A stretch of DNA of 64,000 nucleotides, taken from assembly GCF_037996825.1 (NCBI RefSeq), contig NZ_JBBNAC010000001.1, forward strand, positions 3,162,001 through 3,226,000, written 5' to 3'. The DNA comes from Bdellovibrio sp. BCCA. GTDB taxonomy: Bacteria; Bdellovibrionota; Bdellovibrionia; Bdellovibrionales; Bdellovibrionaceae. Below are positions 14,856 through 25,941 of the stretch, piece after piece. Position numbers and translations under genes: made by a program. Position 1 is the first letter of the stretch, and every line of letters begins with the position of its first letter. Below the pieces are notes generated by a model that searched no databases, had not been told where the DNA came from, and worked only from the letters and a program-made list of their open reading frames with translations.

Positions 14856-15012
14856 TTCCTCATATTGAATGACTTCTTGATCATAATACAAGCTGGCAAG
14901 ACCATTAAAATGTGAATGCGAGGTTCTGTTGTTCTGCAATTTGACAATTCACCCGACATTTATCCTTTTTGTAAGATGAACCTCTTGCTCTTTCGCGAGA
15001 AAACATTTGTCT

Positions 15013-16383
15013 ATGAAAACAAATAAACAAAAATCCATCTTTTTCATTCTTACATTATTAACCTCTTCCTCCGCCTTCGCACTGAATCTCAGTGATTTAC
15101 AAGGGGAATCGCGACGCGAATATCGCTCTCCTCGCGGAGTTCCTGAACTTTGTGTTATTGCGAAAAAATGGCCCGGAGCCAGCTACAAAACAGGTGATCT
15201 AGAAAAAGAAAAAACTCTCTGTAATTACGATTTTTATTTGAACATGGGTATTTGCCCAAAATATACGTCAACCAACCCCGCTATTCTTTTGTTAGAGCCG
15301 AACGCAAAGTACACGAAAGAAGCCATTGATGCTTCCGACTGCAACCTTAAAAAGCTGGATGTAAAAACAGAGGCTAAGTTTAAACAGACCATCACTTGTT
15401 CAAACACATCCTCAATTGTCGCCTACTATCACGTCTCGCGTGCCTTGGGAAATATAGGTCGTGTTCCGACAACCGTTTTGCGCACGATGGATATTCAAAC
15501 TCACGCCAAGCTCACGCAAAAGGCCAACGATTATTTGCGTAATGTGAATGACTCGATTCGCATCTCATGGCAACACTTCGCCGAAGTCCATAAATTTCCA
15601 CGCATGTATCCCCTTCTTTTTGACAATTCTCAATCTCAGATATTTGGAGCTTTGAGTGACAACGTGAAAGACGAAGAACAGTACGGCGATGTTAGCGGCG
15701 TGGGCGACTACGATACGCGCTACCAAAGATTTCTTCGTCAAGCTCCGTTCCAACGAGTAGCAAGTTCCCAATCAGTCCCTCAACAAGTCGGCTCTTCAGA
15801 GTTCACCAAAGTGGCGCAAATCGTGACGCAAATGAAAGACGTTTCTGACATGGTTTTGTTGGACACGATGCTAAACCAACAAGACCGCATCGGAAACATT
15901 CATTATAAGTTTTATTGGTATTACATCAATCCGCAAACCACGACGATAGAACGTTCGAAATCAAATGCGAAAGTCTCTAACGGACAGATCAAAGTTCCAG
16001 ATGAGGAGCTTCGAGAAATGGCCGGCCGTAAAGCCGCTCTTCTTAAAGAAATGGTTCTTAAGGACAATGACTGTGGTGTTTCAAAAACCAATATGATGAA
16101 AAAAATCGGAGCTTTGGATAAAGTTCGACATATGAGCTATCAAACGTATCGACGCTTGCTTGCGTTTGAACAAACACTCAATACGCCTGCAGGTAAAGAC
16201 TACTTCATGAAAGAGCTTTTATTCTCCGCCGCTGATTATTCATCGCTTCTTAAAAACACTCAAGAGGCGAAACGAATCCTGGTGAGCAAGTGCCAGTCGA
16301 GTCAGCTTCAGTTCGATGTGGATTTGGAAAACTACGTCGCGGGAACAAACAGCCGTCGCCCAAAAACGACATGCACACTTTAA
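15013..16383 (+). CDS. Exported protein of unknown function
   Basis: 456 residues. The ATG at 15013 gives a good signal peptide (about residues 1-24, ending SSSAFA-LN); the upstream TTG at 15007 is less likely. The mature part has several spaced Cys residues (for example LCVIAKKW, LCNYDF, MGICPKY, ITCSNTSS) that may form disulphides in the periplasm, and is otherwise polar and mainly helical. I recognise no family. The ribosome site is weak. Its stop TAA overlaps the stop of the convergent VTC gene within TTAA. Confidence 0.65.
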   Translation: MKTNKQKSIFFILTLLTSSSAFALNLSDLQGESRREYRSPRGVPELCVIAKKWPGASYKTGDLEKEKTLCNYDFYLNMGICPKYTSTNPAILLLEPNAKYTKEAIDASDCNLKKLDVKTEAKFKQTITCSNTSSIVAYYHVSRALGNIGRVPTTVLRTMDIQTHAKLTQKANDYLRNVNDSIRISWQHFAEVHKFPRMYPLLFDNSQSQIFGALSDNVKDEEQYGDVSGVGDYDTRYQRFLRQAPFQRVASSQSVPQQVGSSEFTKVAQIVTQMKDVSDMVLLDTMLNQQDRIGNIHYKFYWYYINPQTTTIERSKSNAKVSNGQIKVPDEELREMAGRKAALLKEMVLKDNDCGVSKTNMMKKIGALDKVRHMSYQTYRRLLAFEQTLNTPAGKDYFMKELLFSAADYSSLLKNTQEAKRILVSKCQSSQLQFDVDLENYVAGTNSRRPKTTCTL

Positions 16384-17165
16384 CGGTATAAAACCCCTGG
16401 GGATAAGATCTCAGGGGTTCCCAGATAGGTCGCCATGGAGTTTCCGAACTTAGAAAAAGATCCGCCAACCAGTTCGAAACGGCGGATCAGTTCCACCATC
16501 CAAAGTGGAATCTTCTTTTCACACTTCAACTCAAGCACGACGTTTTTACCAGGCTCCTCAAATGAATCCGGGTGGTCATAGTGACAAAGAGACTTTTCAT
16601 GAGGGCTAACACACCAATCCGTCATTTCTTGATAGCGCAAGTCCCGATCAAACGTCACACGGGCATAGTCATCAACTTCCGAAAGATAAGCCTTGCGACG
16701 GTATTGAGTTAAAATCACAGGACCTAAATTGTAAGTCATTTTCAAATGCAAAAAATCCTCTAAGTTGGTAAGCGAATAGGGGTCCATGCCGTTGGGTAAA
16801 CATTCATTTTCCAGAATATTTCTCCAATCCTTTAAAAGAACCTTCGCTCGTTTTTTTCTTACGAATTCGCGAAGCTTATATTTCACTTCAAAAAAATACG
16901 GAGGCTCCGTTCCTTCCCCGTAAGAACGAATGCGCACATTGAAACTGAAAGCGCCGGCGGACTCTTTGTATCGCAAAAGATATAAGCTCGGTGAATCCAG
17001 ATACAGACTGTTGATGGTATAAAAGTGATCACTTTGAATCACAGAGTAATAATCCATACTGCAGTAAGATTCGACAAAACGTGAAATCGGATCAATCAAC
17101 TCAGGTGAGATCAAATACTTCAGCTCATAGCGTTCTAGATTTAACGGCGACACCTGCTGTCCCAT
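16380..17165 (-). CDS. VTC-domain protein (polyphosphate polymerase domain)
   Basis: 261 residues. The pattern ERYELKYLIS near the N-terminus, then RYKESAGAFSFNVRIRSYG, FFEVKYKLREFVRKKRAKV and a late VVLELKCEKKIPLW fits the VTC domain, the CYTH-like tunnel fold that makes polyphosphate from ATP in yeast Vtc4. The basic residues lining the tunnel (Arg and Lys in those motifs) are present. No signal peptide, so it should be cytoplasmic. It is the last gene of the DUF4956/HlyD/TolC operon, its ATG overlapping the preceding stop as TGATG. Polymerase activity is inferred from the family, and bacterial members are poorly characterised. Confidence 0.8.
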   Translation of the reverse strand: MGQQVSPLNLERYELKYLISPELIDPISRFVESYCSMDYYSVIQSDHFYTINSLYLDSPSLYLLRYKESAGAFSFNVRIRSYGEGTEPPYFFEVKYKLREFVRKKRAKVLLKDWRNILENECLPNGMDPYSLTNLEDFLHLKMTYNLGPVILTQYRRKAYLSEVDDYARVTFDRDLRYQEMTDWCVSPHEKSLCHYDHPDSFEEPGKNVVLELKCEKKIPLWMVELIRRFELVGGSFSKFGNSMATYLGTPEILSPGVLYR

Positions 17166-18319
17166 CAGATTTCCTTTTGTTTTTTATCGATGTAGTTTTT
17201 GTCAGGATTCTTAGTCAGGGTTTCACTTTCCAAAAGGTAATTAAGGTAAAGCATTGTGATTTCTTGTTGTTGGTTCAGCAGATCTAATTGTTCCTGTCGC
17301 TGGGCTATTTTGCGATCCATATTTGTCAAAGAATCCAGCGTGCCCACGGTGATTCGTTCCATTTTCTTGGCACTTCGATAGATTTCGATAAGGTTTAAAA
17401 TCTGAGTTCGCAAATTTTGCAGCTGGTCCCCGCTTTCTTCGAGTTCTTTTTGCTTCAAAGCCCTCTTGAGAATCAATTCATTTTGCTTTTGTTTGGCCAA
17501 CACATCTGAACCCAAAATCGGAATCTGAATCACCAGTTCCACCTCGTACTGTGCGTCGGCATCCTTTTTTTTCTTTTGACTGAGTTCCAGTGCTTTAACC
17601 CACTGCTGTTCTCGGCCCTTAACGATAGCCAGTTCCTGTCCCATCTGCTCGATTTCTTCATGAATGATTTTCTTGCTCAAAGAATCTCCGTCGTGAAAAT
17701 GCTCCTGCAAAGCCGTCGAGATATCTTCGACTTGAATGAGATCCATGCTTTCCACTTTTTTCTCTTTGGCATCGGGGACCCAGTTCAGAATTCTTCTTAG
17801 TAAGAGATCACGTTCTTGAGTCAGCGTACTTTGGACCCTTTGAAAACGATAAAGATCGGATTTTGCAGATAGGAAAGCTTTTGACGTCCCACGGCCCGCA
17901 CGCAAAGAAAGACTTTGCGCTTTGACGTATCTTTCAGAAAGAGACACAGCATCCTCAACGCATTTTAATTTCTGCTGGGTGAGTTCAAACAACAAAAGAG
18001 CATTGTAGCGCGTTTGTAAAGCCCACCCTAGTGATGTGTTTTTAAGAAGTTTTTGTTCCTCAGTCTTACCCCGGCCCCGGGTCCACTCAGGCCAAGATTT
18101 CAGCTGAAACTTAACTCCAATTTCAGTCGCTTCAGTGCCGTTTTGTTCATGACCAACAAAGCCCTCGACGTTTCGCAGTGGATTTTTAGAGTCCGTGGCC
18201 TGAATTTCGTCATAAGACAAATAGGTCTTGTCCGTCCAGGCTGTTTTAAGGACTTGCTCCGCTGTGACGGCGACGGCCACCGAAGAGCTTAAAAACACCA
18301 AGAGCCCGAACAGTTTCAT
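17165..18319 (-). CDS. TolC-like outer-membrane channel protein
   Basis: 384 residues with a signal peptide (MKLFGLLVFLSSSVAVAVTA). The body is dominated by long amphipathic helices with a central interruption, as in TolC/outer membrane efflux proteins, though shorter than the usual 430-480 residues. The N-terminal half contains LGWALQTRYNALLLFELTQQ, and the C-terminal helices LDSLTNMDRKIAQRQEQLDLLNQQQ. It probably forms the outer-membrane exit duct for the HlyD-like protein encoded just upstream. The start ATG at 18319 overlaps the stop of that gene by 4 bases. Assignment rests on architecture and context rather than on a signature motif. Confidence 0.7.
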   Translation of the reverse strand: MKLFGLLVFLSSSVAVAVTAEQVLKTAWTDKTYLSYDEIQATDSKNPLRNVEGFVGHEQNGTEATEIGVKFQLKSWPEWTRGRGKTEEQKLLKNTSLGWALQTRYNALLLFELTQQKLKCVEDAVSLSERYVKAQSLSLRAGRGTSKAFLSAKSDLYRFQRVQSTLTQERDLLLRRILNWVPDAKEKKVESMDLIQVEDISTALQEHFHDGDSLSKKIIHEEIEQMGQELAIVKGREQQWVKALELSQKKKKDADAQYEVELVIQIPILGSDVLAKQKQNELILKRALKQKELEESGDQLQNLRTQILNLIEIYRSAKKMERITVGTLDSLTNMDRKIAQRQEQLDLLNQQQEITMLYLNYLLESETLTKNPDKNYIDKKQKEI

Positions 18320-20094
18320 TCTCGCCTCTTTGCCGTCAGGAAAGGAATCGCGATAAACTGCGCATGTTTGGTATCAAAAACTCCATAAATCTGCCGAGGA
18401 TTCGGAGAAACCGCGATGCCTTCTAACTTTCGCACGTTAAACTCTTGCACAAGTTCCGCTGTTTTCGCTCCGGGACTCAGCTTCCACAAAGCACTACACT
18501 GTTCGTCTCGACAAGAGGAGGCCACATAGACCAAATCCCCTTCAGATATAATGTCAGTCAAATATATTTCTGAATCGACATTAGGAAGCTGATATTGAAA
18601 CTGAAACGCGACAGTCACATCATCAGGAGAAATTCGTCCCTTAGTTAAAGCTCTTTCCAAAGCTTTTATGCGTAAAATGATTCCTTGATTTTTGAAAAGT
18701 ATCGGACGCTTCAGAGCGAGATATAAGTCATCCCCTTTAACAAAGTGCCCTTCGACCTCCAGATCATCTTCCCTGCCTCCCTGTGCGTGCGAATAGATAT
18801 CACGAAGCACCCGGTCTGAAGAATTTTTTATCGCATCCAAAAGAGCCGTTCGTAAATCCATTTCCTTTTCCAGTTGAAACTTCAATCCATCTCTTTTAAT
18901 TTTAACAAAAAGCTGGCGTTCTTTTTTCAAATGACTTTTCTTTGTCGCAGACAATGAACTTAAAAGATAAAGGTAAGAGTCCTGAACTGATATTGATTCG
19001 ATATCCTCCATTTTGTCCAAACCTTCTATCGGCAACATCTGCTCTGCCACTTCACCATGCTGATTCATCAACAGAATCAAAGGACGAGAGTTTGGATAAT
19101 CATCCGAGATCACAGCAAACTGTCGTACTTCAGGGAGATAAACTAAACCGGATACTTCGGGGCGAAATTGATCTGTAATCTGCGCCGGAAAGTGAATATT
19201 CTCAATTGTAGGATGGGTCGGCTCCCATTTCGTTTCACTTTCATCGGCTTGGGCGGTGCTAAACAATGTGATTCCCCAAGAATGGCGAACCGTGACTTTT
19301 TCACCTAAAAGAAATTCATTGCTTTCAGGAATTTTCAAAACGACCTCACGTCCCCATGCGGGCAGCGATTGAATGCGCAGAAGTCTTTGCGGAATAGGAA
19401 CGATGCGCGACCCGACACTGATGACCTGCCCTTGCACTTTCGCTCCCGCCACAGAGGAAACCACCATCGCTTGTCCCACCTTCACCGACGAACGCAGATT
19501 TTCATTCACGTATCCGCTCACATAAGTAGGATTGATCGGCACCAAGGTGATTAGCGGCGCAAAAGCGGGAGCTTTTTCACCATCCTTAAAATTCACGCTG
19601 CCAACGGCGCCATCGACTTCTGAAAAAACAAAGAGATTACGAAGTTTACTTTCGATCAAGCCGATTTCACGTTTTGTATCATTCAGTTCGACTTGCAAGG
19701 GATCTGCCGAATCGGGCAAATGTGGAATATCTCGGGCAAGCAAGGAAATCTGTTTACGCAATTTGATTTCCGCTGAAAGACGGTCAAAGCGAGCTCGCAG
19801 CGTGCGCAATTGCAAATCAAGATCCGCCTGACTGAGTTCAATCAGCAAATCACCTTTTTTAACAATTTGATTTGGTAAAACATGCACATGCTTGATCTCT
19901 ACGGAACTATCGAAATTAACATGATATTCCCGTGACTCAGCCACGCCTAAGATACTCACGGAATCTGTTCCTAACACCAGACCAAAACAGAGAATGGAAA
20001 CCACGGCACAACACCAACAGCCAAAGAGGAAACGATTATCGTGTCCCACAACTTCAGAAAAAAAGGATTTGAAAAACGCTTTGAGGGTTTTCAT
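18316..20094 (-). CDS. HlyD-type membrane fusion protein fused to a C-terminal propeller-like domain
   Basis: 592 residues from the ATG at 20094, one base after the stop of the previous gene. One membrane helix at about residues 25-43 is followed by a lipoyl/biotinyl half (HVHVLPNQIVKKGDLLIELS), a short coiled-coil hairpin, and the returning half (VDGAVGSVNFKDGEKAPAFAPL), the normal HlyD plan. Residues about 285-592 are extra: repeated beta-rich segments such as VSGLVYLPEVRQFAVISDD, KMEDIESISVQDSYLYLL and LEGIAVSPNPRQIYGVFD, resembling SdiA-regulated/phytase-like propellers. It should sit in the inner membrane with the periplasmic part reaching the TolC-like protein. The propeller may sense or bind the cargo. 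Confidence 0.75.
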   Translation of the reverse strand: MKTLKAFFKSFFSEVVGHDNRFLFGCWCCAVVSILCFGLVLGTDSVSILGVAESREYHVNFDSSVEIKHVHVLPNQIVKKGDLLIELSQADLDLQLRTLRARFDRLSAEIKLRKQISLLARDIPHLPDSADPLQVELNDTKREIGLIESKLRNLFVFSEVDGAVGSVNFKDGEKAPAFAPLITLVPINPTYVSGYVNENLRSSVKVGQAMVVSSVAGAKVQGQVISVGSRIVPIPQRLLRIQSLPAWGREVVLKIPESNEFLLGEKVTVRHSWGITLFSTAQADESETKWEPTHPTIENIHFPAQITDQFRPEVSGLVYLPEVRQFAVISDDYPNSRPLILLMNQHGEVAEQMLPIEGLDKMEDIESISVQDSYLYLLSSLSATKKSHLKKERQLFVKIKRDGLKFQLEKEMDLRTALLDAIKNSSDRVLRDIYSHAQGGREDDLEVEGHFVKGDDLYLALKRPILFKNQGIILRIKALERALTKGRISPDDVTVAFQFQYQLPNVDSEIYLTDIISEGDLVYVASSCRDEQCSALWKLSPGAKTAELVQEFNVRKLEGIAVSPNPRQIYGVFDTKHAQFIAIPFLTAKRRE

Positions 20095-20095
20095 T

Positions 20096-20812
20096 TTAAA
20101 CCTCAATCACAGATTCTTGGTTCATAAAATTCAAACCACGTACTGATTGAACTTTGCCCAATTCTTCAATAAGCTGCGCTGACGTGGCTTGAGGCTTCAA
20201 ACGAATCTGGTAAGAAAAATCCAGCCGCTCCCCTTGCCCCACCTCACGAATGGTCGCCAAAGCAAAATGGCGACACTGTCCTTCAAGAACATTCTCGACC
20301 AGACGTTGTTCATCAGCAGAGCGCGAAAGGTTGAAACGCAGCAGTCCATCAAACTGAGGACCCGAAGCAAATGAGGACCCTTGTAAAACGATAAGCGCGA
20401 CGACAAAGCACGCAGTGCCAAGAATAGCTATACCATAAGCATGAACGCCCGACGCCAAGCCTACGGCCAATGAAGCAAAAATAAAGAACATATCACGGGG
20501 ATCTTTGATGTTCGTACGAAAACGCAAAAGAGAAAGCGCTCCAATCATACCAATACCACGAGCCACATTGTCACCGATCGCCTGCATGGCAATAGCAATC
20601 ACAATGGGAAGCAACACAAGACCATGCAAAAAATTAAGAGAATAGGAAAGCCCGCGAAAGGTCTTCACATAAATCAAAGCCAACACAGTTCCCAAAACAA
20701 AACTCAGAAGAAACGCGTAGATGATAGAGATCCATGTCGGGTTCGCAAAAGAAGAATTCAGAACAGAAAAATCCAACATCGAAGCCCCCAAGTAAAAAAA
20801 GGCTTTATCCAT
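20096..20812 (-). CDS. DUF4956 membrane protein
   Basis: 238 residues. Three to four hydrophobic segments lie within residues 25-150, including the hallmark GDNVARGIGMIGALSLLRFRTNIKDPRDMFFIF, followed by a soluble C-terminal domain. DUF4956 proteins are commonly encoded beside VTC-domain polymerases, so a membrane partner of the polymerase is likely. First gene of the four-gene operon. An alternative start at 20779 has GGGGG five bases upstream and would suit a promoter placed by the FNR-type box; the start at 20812 has only AGG. Reaction unknown. Confidence 0.8.
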   Translation of the reverse strand: MDKAFFYLGASMLDFSVLNSSFANPTWISIIYAFLLSFVLGTVLALIYVKTFRGLSYSLNFLHGLVLLPIVIAIAMQAIGDNVARGIGMIGALSLLRFRTNIKDPRDMFFIFASLAVGLASGVHAYGIAILGTACFVVALIVLQGSSFASGPQFDGLLRFNLSRSADEQRLVENVLEGQCRHFALATIREVGQGERLDFSYQIRLKPQATSAQLIEELGKVQSVRGLNFMNQESVIEV

Positions 20813-20922: not shown

Positions 20923-21033
20923 TTTTTAAGAGGGTAATTTGGCAGTTTTATCAAGGCGCAAGGAGAAAGGCGTACACCCGTACGCCGCCGACGCAGCAAC
21001 GCAGAGAAAACTGCCAAGGCACCCTCTTAAAAA
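20923..21033. repeat. Large multi-stem inverted-repeat element
   Basis: Three nested perfect stems: 20923-20935 with 21021-21033 (13 bp), 20939-20949 with 21007-21017 (11 bp), and 20969-20975 with 20980-20986 (GGCGTAC-ACCC-GTACGCC). The element begins inside the last codons of the minus-strand gene ending at 21027 and fills the gap to the DUF4956 operon. It may end that transcript or be a dispersed repetitive element; its base composition is more GC-rich than the flanks. Confidence 0.75.
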
Positions 21034-21761
21034 CGGAAGCCTAGTTTGCCGCTGTATATTGAATCGTTGTAACGATCAATCTGCAAAGCAATAAACATCT
21101 TAGCAATATCAACATTGATTCCAAAGACACTGTGGCCTTCAAGAATATCTTCTTCCACAGTTGTTTGATTATCGGTAATTCCATCAGCGCCGCCGATAAA
21201 TCGACCAATCGCACGAACCTGACCGGCACCGACATAAATCGCGACATTATCCATGGCCACGGTGGCAATGATATCGCCACCTAAAGTGGAGACATTGATT
21301 AAATTGGAAAAATTCGCACCGCCGCCATAGAGCATCGCCGTCAGTGTTAAAGGGAAAAAGTGAGCTTCGTAAAAACCCCAGCGCACCTGTGCGCCGTAAC
21401 TCTGAATATCTTCGTTTTGTCCAAACGGAGTGAAATAAACATGAGTATCAATGTTGTAGTAAAGACCTTTTCCTAAAGTAAGAGTGTAGTAATTGTACTC
21501 GCCTTTGTCCGTTGTCTTACTGCCCAGACTTGCCAAATCTTCGACGGGAATAAACTCAGAAGAGACACCTATCTCCACACCGGAATATCCACCCAGCGGA
21601 TAAGGGTTGTCCAAAATTTTTGATGCGGACCCCAAACCTAAAATTTGCAAGGCGCGAATACGATCTTCTTTATTGAGATTTTTTGGCAAAGCCGTGTTCG
21701 CCTGGGCGAAAAACACAGAAATAGAAAAAGCTAAAAAAACAATAAGGCGAAGAAATTTCAT
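21027..21761 (-). CDS. Putative outer-membrane beta-barrel protein
   Basis: 244 residues. Signal peptide of about 21 residues (ending FFAQA-NT). The mature chain alternates hydrophobic and polar residues with many Gly and aromatic positions (GGYSGVEIGVSSEFIP, YYTLTLGKGLYYNIDTHVYF, AIYVGAGQVRAIGRF) and ends in SGKLGFRF with terminal Phe, the usual recognition end for barrel insertion. No specific family or substrate recognised. The ribosome site AAGGCG lies in a hairpin that spans the start codon. The stop codon lies within the large inverted repeat downstream. Confidence 0.7.
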   Translation of the reverse strand: MKFLRLIVFLAFSISVFFAQANTALPKNLNKEDRIRALQILGLGSASKILDNPYPLGGYSGVEIGVSSEFIPVEDLASLGSKTTDKGEYNYYTLTLGKGLYYNIDTHVYFTPFGQNEDIQSYGAQVRWGFYEAHFFPLTLTAMLYGGGANFSNLINVSTLGGDIIATVAMDNVAIYVGAGQVRAIGRFIGGADGITDNQTTVEEDILEGHSVFGINVDIAKMFIALQIDRYNDSIYSGKLGFRF

Positions 21762-23379: not shown

Positions 23380-24516
23380 CTAAGGCTGTCTTTTTCTAAC
23401 AAGTTTACTGTTGTATCGTGCAGACGGATCTGACGATTGAAGTAATACAATACTGTACCCGCGGTTGTAAATCTCGCGGAGGAATTGCGGCATCACTTCC
23501 GCCGTTTTTCTTTGAATATCATGGAAAAGAATCAATCCACGACCACGAGCATCCAATTGCGCCAGCGTATTGCGAAGCATTGTCTCATTAGGCTGAGCCT
23601 TCCAGTCTTCACTGTCGATAGACCAGTAGAACTCTCCTGTAGAATTTGTTCTTAAGAAGTTCTTCAGTTCAGGAGACGACTCTCCATAAGGGAAACGGAA
23701 GAAAGGATCAACCCAACCAAGCACATCGTAAACGGCCTGATGTCCGCCTTTGATTTCTGCAACCGCTTCATCAAAAGAGAAAACGTGACCATTGGTTTTA
23801 CGACAAGCCGAACTTGTTCCCAAACAAGCGTGAGTGACCGAGTGAGAACCTACGGCATGCCCATCAGCTGCGACCTTTTTTACGATCTCTGGATTCAAAC
23901 GAACGTTTTTACCCATGTGGAAGAAGATCACTTTTGCATTCACTTCTTTTAAAGAACGCAAGATGGATTCTGTATAAAGGTTGCTTGGACCATCATCAAA
24001 ACTGATGATCACTTCCTTACGAACCACATCACCTGTCACGGCGAAGTAACCAGCCGATGTATCGCGTTTCTGCACATTTGTCGGGAATTGGAATCTATTT
24101 TGTGAGGGCTGCGCGCTCAATGCATTCACGGCCACTGACAAACGGGATCTTTCAGATTCATGGTATTGCTCAAGCTTTTCCAACAATTGCTCTTTGCATG
24201 AACTTACCAACGCTCTATTGTTAACGTCGTTCAATTCATTTTCAAAAAGCGTCAAAGATTGACCGTCTAAAGTATTAAGCTCTTTGCAAAGATCTTCTTT
24301 CAACTGTTCACGTTGAGAAGCGTCCTGCATAAAATCTTGGCGCCACTGAGCAAACAAGACTTCCGGATTGGCTTTGGATTGCTCCCATTCCATAAGTGAT
24401 TGCGCGTTTTGGTTGTCAGTCACGGCTTGCTGTACACTCTTACCCACTTGGCTTCCACAACCAATAAGAGAGCCTGTTGCCAACACTGTAAAAGCACTAA
24501 GGATTACTTTCTTCAT
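23380..24516 (-). CDS. NodB-type polysaccharide deacetylase lipoprotein
   Basis: 378 residues. The start ATG at 24516 is preferred over a GTG two codons upstream; it gives the lipoprotein signal MKKVILSAFTVLATGSLIGC. Residues about 30-145 are helical, and about 155-355 form the NodB domain with metal and catalytic motifs ISFDDGPS, GSHSVTH and a late LFHD, plus RFPYGESS. All key Asp/His residues are present, so it should remove acetyl groups from a GlcNAc polymer. In Bdellovibrio, related enzymes deacetylate prey peptidoglycan. Here it follows the Wzz-like gene by 6 bases, so its substrate may be the exopolysaccharide itself. Confidence 0.85.
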   Translation of the reverse strand: MKKVILSAFTVLATGSLIGCGSQVGKSVQQAVTDNQNAQSLMEWEQSKANPEVLFAQWRQDFMQDASQREQLKEDLCKELNTLDGQSLTLFENELNDVNNRALVSSCKEQLLEKLEQYHESERSRLSVAVNALSAQPSQNRFQFPTNVQKRDTSAGYFAVTGDVVRKEVIISFDDGPSNLYTESILRSLKEVNAKVIFFHMGKNVRLNPEIVKKVAADGHAVGSHSVTHACLGTSSACRKTNGHVFSFDEAVAEIKGGHQAVYDVLGWVDPFFRFPYGESSPELKNFLRTNSTGEFYWSIDSEDWKAQPNETMLRNTLAQLDARGRGLILFHDIQRKTAEVMPQFLREIYNRGYSIVLLQSSDPSARYNSKLVRKRQP

Positions 24517-24522
24517 AAGCAC

Positions 24523-25941
24523 CTACTGTGATACGTCTGTCCCCTGCCCAACATTTAGAACATTCCAAGCCACTTTCTGTTGCTCGTCCCCTTGTTCATT
24601 TTCTTTTCCAGCCTCCGGCTTTTTCAAACTAAATTTAATTTTGGAATTTTCGATGATCACACGTGGATCCACAGAGTGATTGTCGAAAATAACCAAGTTG
24701 CGCGACGCTTGCGCCGTCACCACGTGAGGATTCCACAAGTATCTAAAGTAAATCACCAAAGATCCGATGAACTGACTAACAAGCAAAGAAAGAAGTCCTA
24801 AGCTTAAGAGTCCGATTTGTGGCAACGTCGTTTCCCAACGGGCTTGCTCCATCACTTCAAAACGAGTGTCGATGGAGATTTTTTGCGCTTCCAATTTTGC
24901 AAGTGAAGTGCTGAGTTCCTTGTAGCGATTGAACTCCAACTCTGATTTCTTTTTAAGATCTTCCACCATTTGCGCGGCAAACGGCAAAGTCTTCACTTCT
25001 TTTTTCAGACGAGCGATCGAAGATTGAACTTGCGACAACTTTTCTGAGAGCAAACTGTTTTCAATCTTCAAAGATTCAATCTTACCACCAACGCCATAAA
25101 GAGCGCTTTCTCTTTGACCGGAGCGGCCGCGTTCCAAGTATTGAATCATTTTTTTGTTTTCAGCCATTTTCAATTTGATTTCGTTGGCGCGAACCAAAAG
25201 ATCAGAAACGTAGTCGCCCATCTTGTCTTTTGACGCCAACGGAAGAAGGTTCTCATCTTTATTTTGCATGTCTGCAAGCTGCTTACCCAATAATACCAAC
25301 TTCTGATCGGCCTCTTCTTTTTGTTTGGCCATGAAGTTTTCAACACGACCAATTTCATCCAACTCGCGCTTTTTCAAAATCTCCGCGGCCAATTCAGAAG
25401 CTGTGTTTGACAAGAATAAAGACATCGCTTTGATCGGTGTCACCGCTACGACCTTGATTTCAAAGTCCGAATCCAATTGTATTTTTGTCCACTTATCAAG
25501 ACGCTGCAAAAGTTCTGTTTTATCGTCCGCTGTTTTAACATTTTTGAGATAGTTGTTTTTCAAAATCTCATAACCTTTGCGCTCTTCCATCGTGATCAAC
25601 GGGCTATTGCCACGCTGTTGGATGCGCGCCAAAAGGGCGTCGTAAAACTCACGAGTTTTCAAATACTCAATGTGCTTTGAAAGAAGACTGCTGCCCTTTT
25701 TGGATTCCTGCACAGTTTTTGATAAACCAAAAAATTGATTAGAAAAAGCCTGCATTGCTGAGTTTTGGGAGTCATTAATAACAATTGTCGAAGAAGCGAC
25801 AAACGGAATCTTAACGACGTAAACTAGAACGCTGATAGCGAACAAAGCGGCTGTAAACAACGCGAACATACGCCAGTGGGATAAATAAAGCTTAATAATT
25901 TCACCCACGGTTAATTCCGGTTCAATATGTTGATCACTCAT
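24523..25941 (-). CDS. Wzz/GumC-type polysaccharide co-polymerase (chain-length regulator)
   Basis: 472 residues. Two membrane segments (about residues 28-48 and 372-400) flank a periplasmic part rich in coiled coil (for example GKQLADMQNKDENLL, LLSEKLSQVQSSIARLKKEV), the layout of Wzz/polysaccharide co-polymerases. A cytoplasmic tail of about 60 residues lacks a kinase P-loop, so it is not a fused BY-kinase. It probably sets chain length for the polymer made with the ligase/polymerase and SLBB exporter encoded upstream. A sigma-54-like site precedes it, so it may be transcribed separately from them. Confidence 0.8.
   Translation of the reverse strand: MSDQHIEPELTVGEIIKLYLSHWRMFALFTAALFAISVLVYVVKIPFVASSTIVINDSQNSAMQAFSNQFFGLSKTVQESKKGSSLLSKHIEYLKTREFYDALLARIQQRGNSPLITMEERKGYEILKNNYLKNVKTADDKTELLQRLDKWTKIQLDSDFEIKVVAVTPIKAMSLFLSNTASELAAEILKKRELDEIGRVENFMAKQKEEADQKLVLLGKQLADMQNKDENLLPLASKDKMGDYVSDLLVRANEIKLKMAENKKMIQYLERGRSGQRESALYGVGGKIESLKIENSLLSEKLSQVQSSIARLKKEVKTLPFAAQMVEDLKKKSELEFNRYKELSTSLAKLEAQKISIDTRFEVMEQARWETTLPQIGLLSLGLLSLLVSQFIGSLVIYFRYLWNPHVVTAQASRNLVIFDNHSVDPRVIIENSKIKFSLKKPEAGKENEQGDEQQKVAWNVLNVGQGTDVSQ

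Follow-up and report, generated by a model that had tools for sequence, protein, structure and literature searches.

Can a putative polymerase of the VTC family, encoded side by side with the parts of a channel through two membranes, pass its product out of the cell? The question is raised by four adjacent minus-strand genes that run from 20812 to 16380 in the window (the 64,000-nucleotide stretch of the Bdellovibrio sp. BCCA genome analyzed here) and encode, in this order, a DUF4956 protein, a membrane fusion protein (MFP) ending in a propeller, a TolC-like duct protein, and, last, the VTC-domain protein. A preliminary description of this DNA had assigned these four families and had reported junctions of 1-4 bases between the genes; Pfam searches, profile comparisons, and structure models bore out all four assignments, and we measured the junctions as +1 (DUF4956/MFP), -4 (MFP/TolC-like), and -1 (TolC-like/VTC).

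Table 1. Genes of the four-gene set, in window coordinates, with the evidence for each assignment.
Feature	Position	Strand	Evidence
DUF4956 inner-membrane protein	20096-20812	-	PF16316, hydropathy, relatives
MFP (periplasmic adaptor) with propeller	18316-20094	-	AF2 model, profile and structure matches
TolC-like outer-membrane duct, signal peptide	17165-18319	-	AF2 model, Foldseek, OEP in relatives
VTC-domain (TTM fold) protein, predicted cytosolic polymerase	16380-17165	-	PF09359, Vtc4p profile and residues

By their layout the four genes form one transcription unit, since the downstream neighbor is convergent (15007-16383, plus strand) and a gap of ~215 bp, which holds a terminator-like hairpin, separates the DUF4956 gene from the gene upstream; a scan for promoters and terminators gave no signal above chance. 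The DUF4956 protein likely starts at the ATG at 20779 rather than at the ORF start at 20812, because its relatives begin at the equivalent ATG. For the MFP we take the ATG at 20094, one base past the DUF4956 stop, as the start, and the TTG at 20106 chosen by the ORF caller is less likely. Between the upstream gene and DUF4956 lies a 101-base near-palindrome with 22-base arms (20928-21028), of which a weaker 53-base copy (79%) occurs elsewhere in the genome. Genes for a polysaccharide deacetylase and for a chain-length protein resembling Wzz are found a few kb upstream of the operon (23380-25941). In several Bdellovibrio species the operon keeps the deacetylase gene as a neighbor, along with the gene at 21027-21761 and a HEAT-like gene.

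The VTC-domain protein matches PF09359 with an E-value of 2.4e-45 (155 bits against a cut-off of 23), and the profile of its relatives matches the yeast Vtc4p structures (4.4e-15) over residues 10-249. When MFP-lineage VTCs were aligned with Vtc4p, the tunnel residues were found in place: R196, K200, R264, R266, E279, K281, K294, R296, Y359, R361, R373, D377, E426, and K428 were kept in 70/70 sequences and K458 in 69/70. In the window protein, R78, R80, E212, and K239 correspond to R264, R266, E426, and K458 of Vtc4p. The first three of these Vtc4p residues are altered in the inactive mutant of the cryo-EM VTC complex (PMC9911596). The fourth, K458, has been termed the catalytic lysine, and in a TTM tripolyphosphatase its counterpart is of little import (PMC4641920). 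By our own position mapping, the window protein has, as does Vtc4p, basic residues (R12 and K214) at sites that are mostly acidic in TTM hydrolases, and at one further acidic site of those hydrolases it retains a glutamate, E14. With the Vtc4p catalytic residues intact and the acidic patch mostly basic, the protein is likely a polymerase that makes polyphosphate from ATP. In the searchable literature, no prokaryotic VTC was reported to act as a polymerase, and the one deletion of a VTC gene from a bacterium that turned up was that of SIR_1593 in Streptococcus intermedius, for which no aggregation phenotype was reported, while deletion of the DUF4956 gene gave one (PMC12345266). Three relatives have over-long VTC ORFs (L081, L086, and L095) with the VTC domain at the C-terminal end only, probably because the start choices are too long. 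We also rejected an apparent HLY-VTC fusion as a functional protein: the 357-residue ORF at L127:7495-8568 (-) joins the middle of an MFP to the C-terminal half of a VTC at a locus where the TolC gene is missing, and it looks like the remnant of a deletion in the operon.

The DUF4956 protein matches PF16316 (1.7e-14, 54.4 bits against a curated cut-off of 30.6) and also MgtC (1.4e-4), and it shares 37-88% identity with its MFP-linked relatives. Hydropathy predicts four to five TM segments in a hydrophobic N-terminal half and a cytosolic C-terminal domain. An invariant R-F-R motif (ORF residues 97-99) falls in a predicted cytosolic loop; no charged pore helix was evident in the protein, and its conserved arginines lie on the predicted cytosolic side. 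By analogy with the yeast complex, we propose that the DUF4956 protein could serve as the inner-membrane passage for the polymer.

The Pfam matches of the MFP, HlyD_D23 (9.7e-6) and HlyD_3 (2.6e-4), both fall just below cut-off, and the family was settled by profile and structure together: HlyD_D23 was matched by 31/32 aligned sequences, and the core of the AF2 model (pLDDT 86.9), which comprises an N-terminal TM helix, a barrel-sandwich, a short alpha-hairpin (90-152), and a beta-barrel, matches MacA, MexA, and EmrA by profile, Foldseek, and VIA. A simple pattern for the RLS tip motif hit 3/32 MFP hairpins and did not hit the window MFP. Hairpins of the Bdellovibrio MFPs are ~60 residues shorter than those in most other phyla (~79 against ~140 residues).

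By strand count on the AF2 model, C-terminal residues ~299-585 of the MFP form a five-bladed propeller, which in structure comes closest to yjiK (Z 20.3), to glutaminyl cyclases, and to the human Ca-activated nucleotidase (Z 17.9). At the sequence level, the window propeller reaches yjiK at an E-value of only 0.039 and does not match the phytase-like family PF13449, which is found in 10/32 MFP relatives (best 1.9e-7); DUF3616 is matched by 11/32, and no solved nucleotidase was reported as a sequence-profile match. Residues E313, S315, D331, D364, E366, S380, and E558 are invariant in 22 sequences, and E448, D514, and D574 nearly so. The one-per-blade arrangement of S315, E366, E448, T513, and E558 presumably resembles the Ca site of CANT1, and the propeller may bind a metal ion and perhaps shorten or retain the chain on its way out. 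In a sizeable minority of relatives the MFP is short and lacks the propeller, and we therefore regard the propeller as an accessory; the propeller-tailed HlyD protein that was singled out earlier is thus present in the window, but the tail does not define the system. A free-standing propeller of the MFP type is encoded in one relative at G015:C1:288229-289053, ~36 kb from the operon of that genome.

The TolC-like protein has no Pfam match of its own, and 15/42 of its relatives match OEP. Its AF2 model (pLDDT 90.8) shows two beta-hairpins and long helices, its first 44 Foldseek matches are all outer-membrane efflux proteins, and it aligns with TolC over 357 residues (Z 21.4, rmsd 4.3), so that by its modeled fold it is an outer-membrane efflux protein. 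Long Myxococcota ORFs suspected of being MFP-TolC fusions proved to be overlapping frames in GC-rich DNA.

A scan that used only the VTC alignment, run across ~85,000 species genomes, retrieved 66 loci; the scan patterns were drawn from MFP-linked VTCs, and these counts therefore describe that VTC lineage and not all VTCs. The loci span about seven phyla: Bdellovibrionota, Desulfobacterota, Fibrobacterota, Gammaproteobacteria (Methylococcales and Thiotrichaceae), Nitrospirota, Myxococcota, and Verrucomicrobiota. Within ~6.5 kb of the VTC gene, an MFP was present in 65/66 loci, DUF4956 in 58/66, a TolC-like gene in 54/66, and all four in 47/66, which, for loci retrieved by VTC alone, argues that the co-occurrence is not due to chance and shows that the genes are conserved together in relatives. 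Contigs cut near the genes account for 14 of the 19 incomplete loci, and four of the other five are from Verrucomicrobia, which keep VTC, DUF4956, and MFP and have no TolC gene nearby. The gene orders observed (DUF4956-MFP-TolC-VTC, MFP-TolC-VTC-DUF4956, and VTC-DUF4956-MFP-TolC) are cyclic permutations of one another.

Within the genus, the set is inherited all or none. Among 24 genomes, 16 have it and eight do not: VTC was found in 15 and DUF4956 with the MFP in 16 (the sixteenth is cut by a contig end), and the eight that lack VTC, DUF4956, and MFP include three complete single-contig genomes. In a tree, 72 MFP-lineage VTC rows fell on one side of a branch with support of 100/97, and 15 CotH-type or unlinked VTCs, whose long branches leave their own order unsure, fell on the other. 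The MFP-linked VTCs thus form one lineage apart from the CotH-type VTCs tested. We found no relatives of the VTC or the MFP in viral contigs.

The locus has no export ATPase, as the preliminary description had pointed out, and in 55 related neighborhoods we saw no family of exporter genes that recurs. CotH or LTD genes adjoin the set in up to ~20/55 loci, mostly in Desulfobacterota and Fibrobacterota; a genome search found neither CotH nor PHO4 in the window's genome. A PHO4 phosphate transporter gene lies between TolC and VTC in one gammaproteobacterial operon, and a Nitrospirales operon runs directly into a PstS-PhoU-PstC-PstA-PstB-like set, consisting of a solute-binding protein, PhoU, two permeases, and two ATPases. 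These PHO4 and Pst neighbors are single cases, and they tie the set to phosphate independently of the VTC name. A gene for a phytase-like propeller lies downstream of the operon in two methanotrophs. PPK1 was found in 23/24 genomes of the genus, with or without the four-gene set, which implies that polyphosphate storage does not need the set and that the set is not the sole polyphosphate route. Two other neighbors were seen in relatives. A protein of 1109-1150 residues (one copy is cut) adjoins the operons of Halobacteriovoraceae and related bacteria at five loci (L048:9795-13124, L049:1728-5180, L050, L052, and L054), and the two copies that were scanned had no Pfam match. Directly upstream of another relative's operon, L057:3849-5792 encodes a PPDK_N (pyruvate phosphate dikinase ATP-binding) protein.

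We infer, as had been suggested at the outset for a phosphate polymer, that the operon encodes a synthesis-coupled exporter that carries polyphosphate across two membranes; this is the best reading we can offer, and we hold it with somewhat more belief than doubt. By homology and by its residues, VTC would lie on the cytosolic side of the inner membrane and add the gamma-phosphates of ATP to a growing chain. The chain would thread through the DUF4956 protein, by analogy with the TM channel of Vtc1/3/4, and then pass through a periplasmic ring of the MFP and an outer-membrane trimer of the TolC-like protein, whose folds are predicted and whose assembly is presumed. Polymerization and the inside-negative membrane potential would both drive the polyanion outward, and a transport ATPase would then be unneeded. 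Where the MFP carries a propeller, its fold group (yjiK, phytase-like, and Ca-activated nucleotidase proteins) hints at a metal-binding stage at which the chain may be trimmed or held. In yeast, Vtc4p makes the chain on the cytosolic side, the exit of the TTM domain opens toward the membrane channel, and synthesis and translocation are coupled (PMC9911596). Together with this coupling, the conserved set, its all-or-none inheritance in the genus, the single VTC lineage, the intact polymerase residues, the phosphate-gene context (to which the relatives' transporters contribute), the separate PPK1, and the absence of a recurring exporter favor polyphosphate export. Our confidence is tempered by the missing reports of prokaryotic VTC activity and the S. 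intermedius VTC deletion without an aggregation phenotype, by a DUF4956 pore that is only putative and shows no charged pore helix, by MFP hairpins without the RLS motif, which in Bdellovibrio are also short, by the optional propeller, by E14 of the VTC, by the Verrucomicrobial operons without a nearby TolC, and by PHO4 and Pst links that are single cases.

TTM folds have many activities (PMC4641920), and the enzyme might instead make another phosphate product, such as a short oligophosphate or a phosphate on a glycan or protein, which the same four proteins would secrete or feed to an outside phosphotransferase such as CotH. The CotH and LTD neighbors would suit such a product, as would the Gram-positive VTC-DUF4956-CotH set found beside Pel polysaccharide genes (PMC7112168), but the full Vtc4p residue set is kept, including the K458 that is important for polymerization, and the window's genome is without CotH; we consider this explanation rather unlikely. 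A second explanation separates the four proteins. MFP and TolC proteins usually work for ABC, MFS, or RND pumps, and here they might export something else through a transporter encoded elsewhere, while VTC and DUF4956 only deliver polyphosphate to the periplasm or act as a phosphate sensor or regulator. This division of labor would fit the Verrucomicrobial loci and the resemblance of DUF4956 to MgtC, a regulator; it sits poorly with an MFP beside the VTC gene in 65/66 loci, with the lack of a recurring pump gene, and with genes that are kept and lost as a block, and it is in our judgment about as unlikely as the first. It is highly improbable that the set works inward, in the scavenging, uptake, or breakdown of outside polyphosphate, even though two relatives have a Pst or PHO4 importer at the locus and the propeller is phytase-like, as export is the known role of MFP-TolC assemblies and VTC synthesizes polymer rather than importing it.

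If polyphosphate export is correct, a high-energy phosphate polymer could become available to the cell surface or to kinases outside the cytoplasm such as CotH. Effects of bacterial polyphosphate outside the cell have been reported, and we know of no bacterial route that takes the polymer there; a four-gene set that is conserved, is kept or lost as a whole, and has its polymerase residues intact is a direct candidate. DUF4956 would gain a proposed function, as the membrane conduit for the VTC product, and the joint travel of VTC, DUF4956, and secreted CotH kinases a proposed reason, with the diderm version adding the two parts required for passage across the outer membrane. More tentatively, and with less confidence than in export itself, we raise the possibility of an undescribed class of secretion system, in which a polyphosphate polymerase is plumbed to a tripartite channel that lets the polymer leave the diderm cell. 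In the periplasm, such a system could include a phosphohydrolase-like propeller that is optional and binds a metal, and its polymer would go to extracytoplasmic kinases, for example CotH, or to the cell surface. A search of 5.39 million open papers found no description of the four-gene set, no paper that brings polyphosphate, TolC, MFP, and VTC together, and few mentions of DUF4956.

The pairing of VTC with DUF4956 is known, and the four-gene set is its diderm variant; the set also shares parts with several other systems. Like the eukaryotic VTC complex (Vtc1/3/4), it has a TTM/VTC domain with the same residues and a membrane-protein partner, and its synthesis is proposed to be coupled to translocation, as it is in that complex (PMC9911596). 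It differs in having no SPX or DUF202 domain, in its partner, which is DUF4956, in the added adaptor and outer-membrane duct, and in its proposed destination, the cell exterior and not the vacuole. The CotH-VTC-DUF4956 set of Gram-positive Pel loci (PMC7112168, PMC12345266) has the same two neighbors, and some MFP-linked loci also have CotH; that set is without MFP or TolC, its tested VTCs fall outside the MFP-linked lineage, its function is putative too, and its linked CotH kinase gene has no counterpart in the window's genome. Synthase-dependent secretion (BcsA-B-C; Alg8-Alg44-AlgK-AlgE) likewise joins an inner-membrane polymerase to a periplasmic part and an outer-membrane exit with no export ATPase, and Alg44 has a HlyD_3 domain (PMC4594306), whereas here the polymer and synthase are unrelated, the exit is of the TolC type and not an AlgE/BcsC-type barrel, and there is no c-di-GMP domain. 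The MFP and OMF folds are those of tripartite pumps (MacAB-TolC, EmrAB-TolC, HlyBD-TolC), but the set contains no ABC, MFS, or RND pump and is therefore not a classical tripartite pump; its MFP also carries a propeller and shows no RLS tip motif. That propeller shares its fold, with acidic residues in each blade, with the phytase-like, SdiA-regulated (yjiK), and Ca-activated nucleotidase propellers, and differs from them in being fused to an MFP and in having a catalytic site that is putative.
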